A stretch of 64,000 nt of DNA. It comes from Haloterrigena turkmenica DSM 5511 (lineage in GTDB: Archaea > Halobacteriota > Halobacteria > Halobacteriales > Natrialbaceae). The DNA is taken from contig NC_013744.1 of assembly GCF_000025325.1 (NCBI RefSeq), forward strand, positions 558,001 to 622,000, written 5' to 3'. A program made the position numbers and the translations under genes. Shown piece by piece: positions 24,180 through 29,789 of the stretch (position 1 is its first letter; each line of letters opens with the position of its first letter). Under the pieces are notes generated by a model. It had not been told where the DNA came from and did not search any database. It saw only the letters and a list, made by a program, of their open reading frames with translations.

Positions 24180-25031
24180 TCATTCGTCACCAGTCAATGT
24201 GTTCGAGACCGGACTCGAGTCAGACGGGATCGAGCGGAGAAATCGAACCATCAGCACGACGCTGCCGAGCGTCAACGCCCCGAAGATAACGATCTGGGGG
24301 GCGGGAACGGCCTGCCCGTCTCGGATCATGAAAACCGCCATCGCCAGTACCGCTCCGCCGAGCGTGGCGATCTTCACGAGGAGAACGGCGGTGAACGCGT
24401 ACCCATAGGGTCGGCCGACCCGCAGCCAGTACGCGGTGAGGACGAACGCGGGAACGATGATCCCGAGATCGAACGCGTAGATGACGGACGTCGGGAGTCC
24501 GGCCTCGACGATACTCGGTGGGATCGTCCCGGAGCGAATCGCGGGGAAGATTTCCGAGAGCCAGAGGAACGCTATCAGGACGCCCAGCAGCAGGTGGAAC
24601 GCGACGTACGCCCGGTCGGACCGCCGCCCCACCGATCGCTTCAGCGCGGTCGCGTCCAGCCGGACCATCCCGCCGACGAACGTGAAGAGCGTCAGCCAGA
24701 GCAGCGTCGTATAGATCAGGTAGAGTTCGTTGAACGCCGTCATGAACGAGTAGGAAGCGTACGTGTAGAGCAGGTAGCCGATCACGCCCAGCCAGACGAT
24801 GTAGCCGCGAAGCGATCCCCGGGTCGCGAAGTACAGCGACAGGACGAGGGCCGGCAACGCGACGACGAGCGTCAACAGGTCCTGTCCGTACATCTGCGGG
24901 AGGAGTACTGGCGCGTCGCGATAGAACCCGGGGACGAACAGCCCGACGGTCGTCGCGACCGCGGTCAAGATCGATATCACCGCCGTTGACAGGACGTACG
25001 AACGAGGAACAGGCGGGCGAGAAGTGGCCAT
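24180..25031 (-). CDS. Polytopic membrane protein of unknown function
   Basis: 283 aa from the ATG at 25031; a start at 25058 would add nine charged residues. About eight hydrophobic segments span residues 15-265, with few charged loops and no recognised motif. Phrases such as GYIVWLGVIGYLLYTYASYS resemble conserved uncharacterised membrane proteins found in both bacteria and haloarchaea. It is on the same strand as thioredoxin but 138 bp separate its stop from the thioredoxin promoter, so it is probably independent. Confidence 0.75.
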   Translation of the reverse strand: MATSRPPVPRSYVLSTAVISILTAVATTVGLFVPGFYRDAPVLLPQMYGQDLLTLVVALPALVLSLYFATRGSLRGYIVWLGVIGYLLYTYASYSFMTAFNELYLIYTTLLWLTLFTFVGGMVRLDATALKRSVGRRSDRAYVAFHLLLGVLIAFLWLSEIFPAIRSGTIPPSIVEAGLPTSVIYAFDLGIIVPAFVLTAYWLRVGRPYGYAFTAVLLVKIATLGGAVLAMAVFMIRDGQAVPAPQIVIFGALTLGSVVLMVRFLRSIPSDSSPVSNTLTGDE

Positions 25032-25347
25032 GTGGCTACGGGTTCTTCGTTCGGTCACCTGTATCTACTGCCGACGGAGGCCGAAGTCCCCCGTTGGAGG
25101 AGCGTTCTGTCAGTACGCCCTGAAGTTTGGGACGATGACCGTGAACGCTCCCGAAGTGGCGTCCGACGCGTTCGTGTCGAGAGTACGGGAGTCCGCTGAC
25201 AAGCCCGCTGCTTCAGCGGTGGGTAGCTGACGGTTGCTCCGATTCGTCGAGGCGGCATCCCTGTTAGCGCAACGTGCGGTGACTCGATATTCCTCGACGT
25301 TCTCAAAACCACTTCCAGCGCGCAATGATTCGACAGCAGCCAGCGGA
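25032..25347 (+). mobile_element. Probable right-end remnant of an IS1341/TnpB-type element
   Basis: No complete gene. A short plus frame ends in residues ADKPAASAVGS. The DNA at 25200-25230 (AAGCCCGCTGCTTCAGCGG followed by TGGGTAGCTGA) resembles the coding end and hairpin region of haloarchaeal TnpB elements, with an inverted repeat CCGCTG-CTT-CAGCGG (25204-25218). No catalytic domain remains. The rest of the region shows nothing. The assignment rests on a remembered pattern and a short hairpin. Confidence 0.3.
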
Positions 25348-25986
25348 CTAGAAGAGTTCGTCGAGAGGCCGGTCCGCACCGTCTTCGGTCTCGATGTCTT
25401 CGTTCGGCTCGATAGGAGGAGCATCGAAGAGGCGGCCGCCACCGTGTTCTCGGGCAGCGAGCACGTCATCGATAAGTGTCTCTGTTTCGTCGTCTAGTTC
25501 TGGAATTTTGAGGGCATCGCTAACGTCTTCTGGCAGGTCTGGTCGAGGCGCATCCTGATGGCGTTTGATTTTCTCGGTGAGATAGAGATGTTCCTGCAGG
25601 GCACGCAGAACCGGGACGTACCGGAGGTAGCTGTACTCATCCAAGAGGGTGACCCCGTAGCTGGTCAACCCCCAGAACTCCCGTGGATCGTTACGCTCGG
25701 CCTCATCTCCACGGTATTTGTACTTCGCCATCACCTGCTTCTCTGCAAGCCGGTCGAGATGCTCCCGGATGGTAGAGCGATTCTTGGGCACGAGGTATTC
25801 GAACTCGTCGAGCGTCGCCAGGTACCGTGGATGCCCGAGCACGGCTTGGATGATGTGGTAGCGGGTTTCTTGCGTGAGGAATTGGTGTGCCCGTCGCTGT
25901 TTCTCGATCGGTAGGACGTCGTCACCGCCGAACGGGTCTGCCTCGCCGCCGATCGGATTTCCTGGACCTCCCACACTATTGCTCAT
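25348..25986 (-). CDS. Winged-helix DNA-binding regulator
   Basis: 212 aa from the ATG at 25986 (a start at 26007 is possible). The N-terminus is Gly/Pro-rich. A winged-helix domain spans about 30-115, with QFLTQETRYHIIQAVLGHPR and the helix region VPKNRSTIREHLDRLAEKQV, then YGVTLLDEYSYLRYVPVLRA and a long acidic tail. Lower GC than the surrounding genes. It is divergent from the 279-aa gene at 26101, sharing a 114-bp promoter region, and is its most likely regulator. Ligand and operator unknown. Confidence 0.8.
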   Translation of the reverse strand: MSNSVGGPGNPIGGEADPFGGDDVLPIEKQRRAHQFLTQETRYHIIQAVLGHPRYLATLDEFEYLVPKNRSTIREHLDRLAEKQVMAKYKYRGDEAERNDPREFWGLTSYGVTLLDEYSYLRYVPVLRALQEHLYLTEKIKRHQDAPRPDLPEDVSDALKIPELDDETETLIDDVLAAREHGGGRLFDAPPIEPNEDIETEDGADRPLDELF

Positions 25987-26100
25987 ACGTGTCCATTTCG
26001 TCTCCACTCACGTAACTATTCGGGATGGGCGAGTTGGATTTAGAGCGAATTTCCAACCCGAATGCGAGTTTTTAAGACGAACACGTCTGTAGTCGGATAT

Positions 26101-26940
26101 ATGAGTGGCCCACGGGTTCCACGCAATTCATACGCCATCTACCGGGCTGTCGACCGAATTTTCGAGGGAATTATCTCTCCGCCACAGGGGGACTACCACG
26201 CAGTCGTCCGCTATATGAACGAAGAACTCCCCCGGTTCGAGCAAGCCGATAGTAGCTATCTCATTCTTGGGAGCTACCGCAGCGAATACGGACGGCGCCT
26301 TCGAGAGTTCGCTAACTGTCTCAACATGCCGACGAACGCCGAATCGATCGTTCTCGGGGATACGATCAACTTAGATACCGCGGTCGTCCCCGAATTCGAC
26401 ATCAAGATCAACCTCCTCGGTGAGGCAGCAGATTACGTCGCTGGCGTCTATGAGAAAGAAAGCGGCGGTGAGAGCCCGGAACTCGGAGTCGTCAGAGCAC
26501 TCTTCGCGAATAAGACGTTCGTATTCCCGCGTGACTATACTGGCCTCACCCGCGATAGCCTGGAGACACGAGAAGACGTCATTCAGGCTGCTCTGGTGGT
26601 GTATTACGCCGACTTCGATCATATCGAGAGTGAGCAGCGAGTCGCCGAGAAGAAGAAAGCGGAAATCGCATCGCTACTGACAGCAGCGCGAGAGGAAGGT
26701 ATCGAGATCACCGAGCGAGAACTCACCGACGTGATCAAAGAGCGTCAAAACGATCTCGATGAGCCGCCCGCCGAATATAGCTGGGTCCATCTGAGCTTCT
26801 TCAAACGGTTCGAGGCGATGAACCAGTGCCACCCTTGGACGACGACGGCCGAACTGCGAGACCGTGCTGATGAGATGCCGGGGCCAGAACGCCCGCGGTG
26901 GGAAACTGAATTCGACGTAGGGATGTTCCGGGACGACTAG
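26101..26940 (+). CDS. Uncharacterised protein with a deoxyribosyltransferase/TIR-like signature
   Basis: 279 aa, not a family I can name with confidence. The central part resembles nucleoside 2-deoxyribosyltransferase/TIR-like Rossmann folds: YLILGSYRSEYGRRL (about 53-67), a middle strand ending in ADYVAGVYE, then SGGESPELGVVRALF with E127 in the position of the catalytic Glu (ELG), and the strand KTFVF. The C-terminal half is helical and charged, with a coiled-coil-like stretch at about 173-220. Visibly lower GC than its neighbours. Leaderless start, with a TATA-like TTTTTAAG near 26070. Whether it cleaves nucleosides or NAD, or is inactive, cannot be told. Confidence 0.75.
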   Translation: MSGPRVPRNSYAIYRAVDRIFEGIISPPQGDYHAVVRYMNEELPRFEQADSSYLILGSYRSEYGRRLREFANCLNMPTNAESIVLGDTINLDTAVVPEFDIKINLLGEAADYVAGVYEKESGGESPELGVVRALFANKTFVFPRDYTGLTRDSLETREDVIQAALVVYYADFDHIESEQRVAEKKKAEIASLLTAAREEGIEITERELTDVIKERQNDLDEPPAEYSWVHLSFFKRFEAMNQCHPWTTTAELRDRADEMPGPERPRWETEFDVGMFRDD

Positions 26941-27114
26941 CCGGACTCACGGACATACGTGCCGTTCTGAATCGAGAATCGCGTGCGCATTCGTATCGAC
27001 GACAACGCGACCTTCACTCGTTGAATCGGTAGCTTCGCCCGCTTCGTGTACTGGTTTGAGGCGTGGCTTCGGTCGAACCCTGAATTTTTTCGTCCTACTG
27101 ATGGACCGCGTCGT

Positions 27115-27687
27115 ATGGTATCTATCCTCGTGATATACGGAACGGGCGAGGGACAGACGGCAAAGATCGCCGAGACCGTCGCCGACGCGATCGAGGAGCG
27201 CGGTCACGAGACGACCGTGACCGACGTCGCGGCCGATTCGGGGTCGGTCGATGTCGACGATTTCGACGCGGTGCTGGTGGGTGCGTCGATCCACGTTGGA
27301 AAGCAGCAGGCCGCGGTCCGAACCTTCGCGACGGACCACCGAGACGCCCTCGAGTCGCGCCCGACGGGGTTCTTCCAGGTGTCGCTGTCGTCGGCGACGG
27401 ACGACGACACGCGGCGGGCGGAGGCCGCGGGCTACGTCGATGCGTTCGTCGAGGAGACGGGGTGGCAACCCGATCGCGTCGGCCTCTTCGGGGGTGCGCT
27501 CCGGTATTCGAAGTACGGGTTCCTCAAACGGCTGGTGATGAAGCGGATCGCCAGGGAGGCCACCGGCGACACGGACGCATCCAGGGACTACGAGTACACC
27601 GACTGGGAAGAGGTCGAGGCGTTCGCGAACGACTTCGCCGCGTTCGTCGAGGGCCGACTCGGCGTCGCACCGCCGTCGTCGGAGTGA
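27115..27687 (+). CDS. Flavodoxin-domain protein, HemG-like protoporphyrinogen oxidase family
   Basis: 190 aa. A flavodoxin fold starts at once with VSILVIYGTGEGQTAKIAET, the FMN phosphate loop, followed by DAVLVGASIHVGKQQAAVRTF and FFQVSLSSATDDDTRR, phrases shared with menaquinone-dependent protoporphyrinogen oxidase (HemG flavodoxin type). The start at 27115 is the first ATG that precedes the FMN loop closely. Role: electron transfer through FMN. A role in haem synthesis is possible, but the haem genes here are 20 kb away and include an FAD-type oxidase. Confidence 0.85.
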   Translation: MVSILVIYGTGEGQTAKIAETVADAIEERGHETTVTDVAADSGSVDVDDFDAVLVGASIHVGKQQAAVRTFATDHRDALESRPTGFFQVSLSSATDDDTRRAEAAGYVDAFVEETGWQPDRVGLFGGALRYSKYGFLKRLVMKRIAREATGDTDASRDYEYTDWEEVEAFANDFAAFVEGRLGVAPPSSE

Positions 27688-28860: not shown

Positions 28861-28994
28861 ACCGAATTCCCCGTTTCTTCTATGTGACGCATACCCACGA
28901 GTCAGTGTGAGCGCCGTGGAGGCGACGAAGCATGCCAGCGTATCGAGGCGTCGCAGCCGGAATTAATTTTATGAGCGGCTCAATACTGTACAGT

Positions 28995-29135
28995 ATGATG
29001 TGTCCCATCGATCTCGCTCCCCATCTCTCGAGCATCCGAGCCGCGCGGCTCATTGGGAGGGCTCCGGACGACGAGACGGCAGGCACTGTCGCCGAGACCG
29101 GCGAACTCGTCGACAAAGCCGCCGAGGGTACGTGA
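28995..29135 (+). CDS. Small ORF overlapping the methyltransferase start
   Basis: 46 aa from the ATG at 28995 (another at 28998). Its stop overlaps the GTG start of the next gene (GTGA, 29132-29135), suggesting coupling. A perfect 10-bp palindrome, ACTGTACAGT (28985-28994), sits directly before the ATG, and AT-rich AATTAATTTTA lies 24-34 bp upstream. Sequence not recognised. It could also be a 5' leader or a remnant of a longer gene. Confidence 0.4.
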   Translation: MMCPIDLAPHLSSIRAARLIGRAPDDETAGTVAETGELVDKAAEGT

Positions 29136-29698
29136 CCGTGGGCTACCACACGTTCGACGCCGGGCGGGCGGATCAGCTAGAACGGGCCGGACGGCGATAC
29201 CGATTCCTCTCGGCCGAGGAACTGCTGTGGTCGCTCTCGCTGTCGCCGGACGATACCGTCGCCGACCTCGGCAGCGGCACCGGCTTCTTCACCGACGACG
29301 TCGCACCCCACGCCGGGGAGGTCCACGCGGTCGACGTTCAGGAGGCGATGCACGAGTATTATCGGGAAAAGGGCGTCCCGGAGAACGTCGCCCTCGTGAC
29401 CAGCGACGTGAGCGACCTCCCGTTCGACGACGACGCGCTCGACGCCGCGTTCTCGACGATGACCTACCACGAGTTCGCGAGCGACGACGCGCTCGCGGAG
29501 ATTCGACGAGTCCTCGCGCCCGACGGCCGACTCGTCGTCGTCGACTGGGCGTCGACCGGCTCCGGCGAGGATGGTCCGCCGGTCGACGAGCGATACAGCG
29601 CCGACGAGGCGGCGACCGCCCTCCGCGACGCCGGATTCGATATCGAACACGAGGCCGTCCGCCCGGAAACGTTCCTCTTGATCGCGACGCTCGAGTGA
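29132..29698 (+). CDS. Class I SAM-dependent methyltransferase
   Basis: 188 aa with a GTG start at 29132. SAM motif I is VADLGSGTGFFTDDVAPHAG (about 38-57), the acidic loop is VHAVDVQEAM, motif II is around LDAAFSTMTYHEF and the strand LVVVDW follows. A UbiE/Methyltransf_11-type fold. The substrate is unknown. The GTG was chosen because it gives the family N-terminus (YHTFDAGRADQLE, a phrase typical of this group) and overlaps the small ORF upstream. Confidence 0.88.
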   Translation: MTVGYHTFDAGRADQLERAGRRYRFLSAEELLWSLSLSPDDTVADLGSGTGFFTDDVAPHAGEVHAVDVQEAMHEYYREKGVPENVALVTSDVSDLPFDDDALDAAFSTMTYHEFASDDALAEIRRVLAPDGRLVVVDWASTGSGEDGPPVDERYSADEAATALRDAGFDIEHEAVRPETFLLIATLE

Positions 29699-29789
29699 GT
29701 TTCCGGCCCGATTCATCAGTTTTTGACACCTCGTAACTCGCCTTCAGAAACCGACAGGGTAAACCACGTCTATGAGATAGAAGATCCAA

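Follow-up and report, generated by a model that had tools for sequence, protein, structure and literature searches.

A mobile haloarchaeal gene pair encoding a winged-helix regulator and a divergently transcribed effector with a predicted NDT/TIR-type fold

The window analysed here, a stretch of 64,000 nucleotides from Haloterrigena turkmenica DSM 5511 (genome of 5.44 Mb in seven contigs), contains two divergent genes separated by 114 bp, one encoding a winged-helix regulator and the other an effector with a predicted NDT/TIR-superfamily core (Table 1). The original prediction, made from the letters of the sequence, had described an unrecognised pair of this kind; both open reading frames are found at the position and on the strands that it gave, and the motifs it quoted from the effector (YLILGSYRSEYG, ADYVAGVYE, and SGGESPELGVVRALF) match exactly. 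Its remark that the pair is lower in GC than its surroundings also holds, with a GC content of 0.564 for 25348-26940 against 0.629 for the whole window, a value this low occurring in only 3.9% of equal-sized windows.

Table 1. Coordinates of the gene pair, its proposed control elements, and the flanking remnants within the window
Feature	Position	Strand	Remarks
Segment missing from sister genome	25072..27085		2,014 bp, replaced there by 56 bp (L214, G191)
Repeat remnant, read as IS200/605-type end	25075..25231		Contains hairpin CCCGCTGCTTCAGCGG
Repeat remnant	25231..25309		Same repeat as 26972..27083
Regulator	25348..25986	-	212 aa, ATG at 25986; winged-helix DNA-binding protein, C-terminal part helical
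GTAACTATTCGGG, proposed regulator promoter element	26012..26024	-	~26 nt upstream of regulator ATG; conserved across subfamilies
Inverted repeat CGAGTTGGATTTAGAGCGAATTTCCAACCCG, candidate operator	26030..26060		TTGG-N15/16-CCAA, between both promoters
TTTTTAAG, proposed effector TATA-like element	26069..26076	+	~25-30 nt upstream of effector ATG
Effector	26101..26940	+	279 aa, ATG at 26101; NDT/TIR-superfamily core
E118 codon	26452..26454	+	118/118; adjoins C-terminal end of strand 112-117
E127 codon, proposed catalytic Glu	26479..26481	+	ELG motif; 118/118; aligned by motif and predicted secondary structure
Repeat remnant, other side of pair	26972..27083		Same repeat as 25231..25309

An AlphaFold2 model of the effector built from 37 homologues (pLDDT 85.4, pTM 0.83) contains four strands at residues 51-57 (b1), 80-84 (b2), 112-117 (b3), and 139-144 (b4), and its strand-helix order is that of NDT and TIR domains. 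The core occupies approximately residues 49-150 together with a part extending to ~263, to which the model adds N-terminal helices and a helical insertion at ~157-226. A Foldseek search with this model returned human DNPH1 with a probability of 0.99 but a weak E-value (0.043 for the best DNPH1), and among the matches listed by VIA-align human DNPH1 was the best (Z 12.4 over 128 aa, rmsd 3.1), with TIR-STING at Z 11.5, SPARTA TIR at 10.7, NDTs at 10.2-10.6, and the first structures from outside the superfamily at Z ~8.5. The 50 structural matches listed did not include the retron Ec86 effector, which is uninformative either way. Although the Foldseek E-value is weak when taken alone, the effector is on the evidence of the model assigned an NDT/TIR-type fold; the guess from motifs is thereby borne out at fold level (VIA-align DNPH1 Z 12.4), the predicted structure being related to deoxyribosyltransferases and TIR domains and not to an unrelated fold. 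The effector had also been called unrecognised, and it is indeed absent from the family libraries searched, being matched by neither a family of Pfam, NCBIfam, PHROGs, or PADLOC nor a PDB sequence; the 279-aa protein has no Pfam match even at E 1, so none to PF05014, and no TIR, TIR-like, or DUF4062 model matches it. Similarly, hhalign comparisons of the effector with single DNPH1, TIR, and retron sequences and with a small retron alignment scored no better than decoys, while the register of the Glu motif was correct in these alignments for the retron and for DNPH1. Apart from the effector, the genome encodes a TIR-like protein (L179, G000:C1 ~1980484) that may be followed by a Cys-rich segment and has homologues in related genera.

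Residue conservation was counted over 118 distinct effector sequences, in all of which E127, E118, G57, S58, D111, G122, P143, Y226, C243, and W246 are invariant, with one exception at G123 and with D87 and R60 kept in 108 and 107 sequences, respectively. Chance open reading frames were rejected because homologues at 26-100% identity keep E118, E127, G57, S58, D111, Y226, C243, and W246 (118/118). The Glu that had been placed at the catalytic position of NDT and TIR enzymes is E127, which in the model belongs to an E-L-G motif early in helix 124-134, the helix that follows strand 3 (112-117), and its conservation in homologues was complete when checked (118/118). The motif S-x-G-x3-E-L-G is common to the effector, DNPH1 (SLGVGYELG), and the retron Ec86 effector (SPGSFTELG). 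In DNPH1, D80 is the general acid and both D80 and Y24 are catalytic; by sequence register, the effectors have no conserved acid at the D80 position and no conserved counterpart of Y24. Nicotinamide leaves without the help of a general acid, and because no conserved acid stands at the D80 position, NAD+ may be slightly favoured over dNMPs as the substrate of the effector. The covalent nucleophile of DNPH1 is E104, and its water activator is E55 (PMC10603095). E127 is proposed from the shared motif to be the equivalent of E104, and D87, located where strand 2 ends, would correspond to E55.

The regulator is likewise predicted as a winged-helix protein by its model (pLDDT 80.8), and the open reading frame at 25348-25986 (-) can thus be recognised as the divergent winged-helix partner gene that had been expected. 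Its closest comparison is with 3u1d, a solved winged-helix protein of Halomicrobium mukohataei to which it is related both in fold (3u1d_A, Z 17.7 over 140 residues) and in sequence (E 2.4e-15, ~21% identity), and whose PDB entry names no function. A conserved segment, H-x(2)-APRP-x-LP, follows the winged helix, and the window regulator ends in DRPLDELF; an LDELF-like C-terminal tail is found in the window subfamily and several others and is missing from other subfamilies. Regulators of one subfamily reach ~390 aa and have large C-terminal extensions. On some plasmid copies of the pair (L022, L027, L033, and L097), the effector is directly followed downstream by another winged-helix gene, which is shorter and comes from the same wider family. 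A regulator fused in frame to a complete FtsZ was observed in Haloarcula sebkhae (L081:3914-5893 (-), equal to locus L170), the FtsZ part matching TIGR00065 with 387 bits, above the cut-off. A check of 32 genomes from this genus gave no further regulator-FtsZ fusion, and the fusion, being a single case, was dropped as a functional clue.

The region between the two genes carries elements that could serve the control of both. By their position and conservation, GTAACTATTCGGG and TTTTTAAG would act as promoter elements of the regulator and the effector, respectively, and the inverted repeat between them is the presumed binding site of the regulator. The pattern TTGG-N15/16-CCAA is present in 41 of 91 distinct upstream regions, every copy beginning at -67 to -69 relative to the effector start codon, compared with a mean of 0.8 and a maximum of 3 in shuffled upstream regions, figures that overstate independence since the upstream regions are related by descent. 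It occurs both in the window subfamily and in the plasmid subfamily, whose effectors are ~42% identical, and in two loci (L005 and L006) it forms a perfect 32-bp palindrome, the inner arms differing between copies and remaining complementary. The exact TTGG/CCAA motif was not found in the other 50 of the 91 upstream regions, and other subfamilies would therefore need other operators.

Effector matches were detected by tblastn in 195 of 391 sampled Halobacteria genomes and in 64 of 86 genera, as well as on 59 plasmid records, and the relatives include those of Halobacterium salinarum NRC-1 and R1. Around half of the sampled Halobacteria genomes thus carry at least one relative, yet the effector is unnamed and annotated merely as hypothetical, and a literature search, with most subscription journals outside its reach, found no paper describing the pair. 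A scan of ~85,000 species genomes, based on two short motifs and so liable to overlook distant relatives, retrieved nothing beyond haloarchaeal loci and a single Euryarchaeota MAG, and the candidate explanation of bacterial or other archaeal relatives was set aside on this result. A virus origin was rejected in the same way, no effector relatives being present in phage records or IMG/VR. The regulator is adjacent to the effector in 95 of 95 loci of a first set and for 146 of 150 effectors in a larger set, the remaining four being truncated or at a contig edge. The pairwise distances of regulators and effectors are strongly correlated (Mantel r 0.93, a value reached by 0 of 999 permutations), and the gene neighbourhoods differ beyond the pair, with no conserved third gene. 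The two genes form one module, which is stable and spreads as a unit; the predicted fold and the module, taken together, are regarded as very probable.

This module is also mobile. A congeneric sister genome (G191) has a clean site at which only 56 bp lie between the flank ending at 25071 and the one beginning at 27086, an effector with 83% identity occurs in a different family (G201), and many copies are carried on plasmids. The insertion sequence debris reported beside the pair was traced to the three repeat remnants in Table 1. The remnant at 25075-25231 matches another repeat copy in the same genome at 87% and is read as the end of an IS200/605 (TnpB-type) element, and the repeat shared by 25231-25309 and 26972-27083 overlaps elsewhere a transposase-like open reading frame that is read as IS5-type. 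Outside the segment, a methyltransferase-like region at 28966-29700 of the window recurs with ~90% identity at other places in this genome and in sister genomes.

Loss of the two genes is one-sided. In a regulator search followed by inspection of 28 loci, an intact regulator was accompanied by an absent or truncated effector in 20 (L232, L233, L235-L237, L245, L246, L248, L249, L251-L254, L257-L261, L263, and L264), several of which retain an effector fragment beside the regulator, and none of the loci examined showed an intact effector lacking its regulator (0 against 20). A sign test on these numbers, assuming even losses, gives ~2e-6, a value that overstates independence because there is some relatedness among the loci. 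The genes next to the orphan regulators include no common replacement. Because the effector is lost or broken only in this one direction, with the regulator retained, it may be normally silenced and potentially harmful; the one-way loss suggests the pattern expected of a harmful effector that is checked by its regulator, and regulators may also persist for reasons other than antitoxicity.

Among known systems, the effector of retron Ec86 (Retron-Eco1) of E. coli B, named in the PDB as a ribosyltransferase/DNA-binding protein, combines an NDT-like domain carrying ES-x-G-x3-ELG, in register with the present effector, and a DNA-binding domain. By its title, Carabias 2024 (cited in PMC12548924) reports retron Ec86 as an NAD+-hydrolysing antiphage system. 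The two domains form one protein in the retron, whereas here they are encoded by two separate divergent genes, and the sequence similarity is not significant; by analogy, the pair resembles a retron Ec86 effector that has been split in two. Identity with a retron was rejected because no match to the Ec86 reverse transcriptase was found in the window or in 248 fetched loci. No Rfam family was found in 24800-27300, but retron RNAs may be poorly covered by Rfam. DNPH1, in its human and haloarchaeal forms (PF05014 superfamily), is the best structural match listed, with E104 corresponding by sequence register to E127 and a GS-x-R loop in common, but the effector has well over 100 additional residues in its N-terminal helices and helical insertion, no Pfam match, and a regulator with which it is always paired. 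TIR-STING and SPARTA TIR belong to the same fold class and share with the effector a single invariant Glu of catalytic type. Swarozyc (DUF4062) combines a TIR-like NADase with an auxiliary domain of HTH/winged type (PMC13174449). Compared with it and with other TIR NADases, the winged-helix partner here is a separate protein, and the effector matches neither TIR nor DUF4062 models. AbiE and other autoregulated toxin-antitoxin or abortive-infection pairs resemble the present pair in their DNA-binding partner, their inverted repeat, and an effector that is lost more readily, but the layout here is divergent and not operonic, and the effector family is unrelated. Type II toxin-antitoxin pairs seldom have a divergent arrangement. 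By the tests made, the pair is not a retron and not a member of the TIR or DNPH1 families.

The reading that we prefer is a repressor-silenced N-glycosidase of the NDT/TIR type working by the logic of toxin-antitoxin or abortive-infection systems. The winged-helix protein would bind the inverted repeat between the divergent promoters and thereby keep both genes off, the effector above all; the effector, when made, would cleave NAD+ or a nucleotide with E127 as the catalytic glutamate, cleavage would lead to growth arrest or cell death, and repression would be lifted, or the effector freed from the regulator, by signals from viruses, plasmids, or stress. DNA binding at the repeat, enzymatic activity, substrate, toxicity, and trigger are all putative steps in this scheme, and the chances that the full mechanism is correct appear evenly balanced. 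A more far-reaching version, in which the pair is an undescribed Halobacteria-wide suicide or defence module with a free winged-helix repressor and an NDT/TIR NAD+ hydrolase, a split counterpart of the retron effector that does without a reverse transcriptase and is possibly near the ancestral parts, is possible though doubtful. If a repressed NAD+ or nucleotide hydrolase is indeed encoded, it would represent a widespread archaeal suicide or anti-element system, in which the NDT and winged-helix components fused in the retron Ec86 effector exist as two free genes.

Instead of a toxin, the effector could be a useful enzyme of nucleotide salvage or pool cleaning that, like DNPH1, disposes of modified or surplus nucleotides, under the control of a metabolite-responsive repressor. 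DNPH1 is the closest fold among the matches listed, the GSYR loop after strand 1 of the effector recalls the GSIR of DNPH1-like haloarchaeal proteins, and the acidic D87 stands by sequence register where DNPH1 has E55 after strand 2. However, D80 and Y24 of DNPH1 are without conserved counterparts in that register, typical DNPH1 orthologues are already present in some haloarchaea (L176-L178), and a patchy, mobile distribution with one-way effector loss is unlike housekeeping, so that a salvage role is judged unlikely. A non-toxic signalling switch, in which the effector makes or destroys a nucleotide ligand sensed by the winged-helix protein for the control of the pair itself and perhaps of plasmid or element genes, would account for the strict co-inheritance and co-evolution of the two genes, their shared intergenic control region, the large C-terminal extensions of regulators in one subfamily, and the persistence of orphan regulators. 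Such a switch is likewise considered unlikely, since the regulator shows nothing recognisable as a ligand-binding domain outside its winged helix and short helical part, and no conserved third gene is under its control.

Silencing of a toxin by direct contact is a further alternative, with the winged-helix protein also binding and blocking the effector protein and its C-terminal tail (LDELF in the window subfamily) being inhibitory. Co-evolution of the two proteins, retention of the regulator where the effector is broken, and the conserved segment after the winged helix together with LDELF-type tails in several subfamilies are consistent with such contact, but the tail is missing in other subfamilies and the divergent gene order leaves no translational coupling, and the probability given to this arrangement is low. 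It would be most surprising if the effector were a catalytically inactive NDT/TIR-like fold serving as a binding or scaffold protein: similar non-enzymatic proteins exist, and CENP-M is among the matches listed with Z 8.4, but even very divergent members show little or no variation at E127, E118, the GSY motif, and the GG pair.

As for the surroundings of the pair, the proposal of a stress or defence effector raised the question of enrichment near defence genes. In a weak matched comparison, 140 neighbouring genes set against as many from the same replicons had a few more PADLOC matches and no clear enrichment, several of the matches being TnpB or general ATPases, and the pair is not consistently near defence genes. 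Certain subfamilies have characteristic neighbours, although most copies lack the chromosomal gene sets described next. For example, chromosomal members of the subfamily with ~390-aa regulators (L072, L079, L126, L129, L131, and L132) often lie beside PLD-like, HerA, NurA, and Rad50-like genes, a neighbourhood that is possibly an uncharacterised DNA-processing or defence cluster. In another subfamily (L068, L071, L149, L151, and L157), the pair is found beside a conserved two-gene set of a UvrD helicase and a PD-(D/E)XK protein, which resembles AddAB or Gabija-like helicases. Similarly, in L097, L099, L102, L141, and similar plasmid loci, the pair is surrounded, in a conserved plasmid stretch, by AbiEi-like, TROVE/Ro60-like, and unknown 291-aa and 134-aa genes; the AbiEi-like gene beside some plasmid copies belongs to a different system, and a Ro60-like gene on haloarchaeal plasmids was unexpected.
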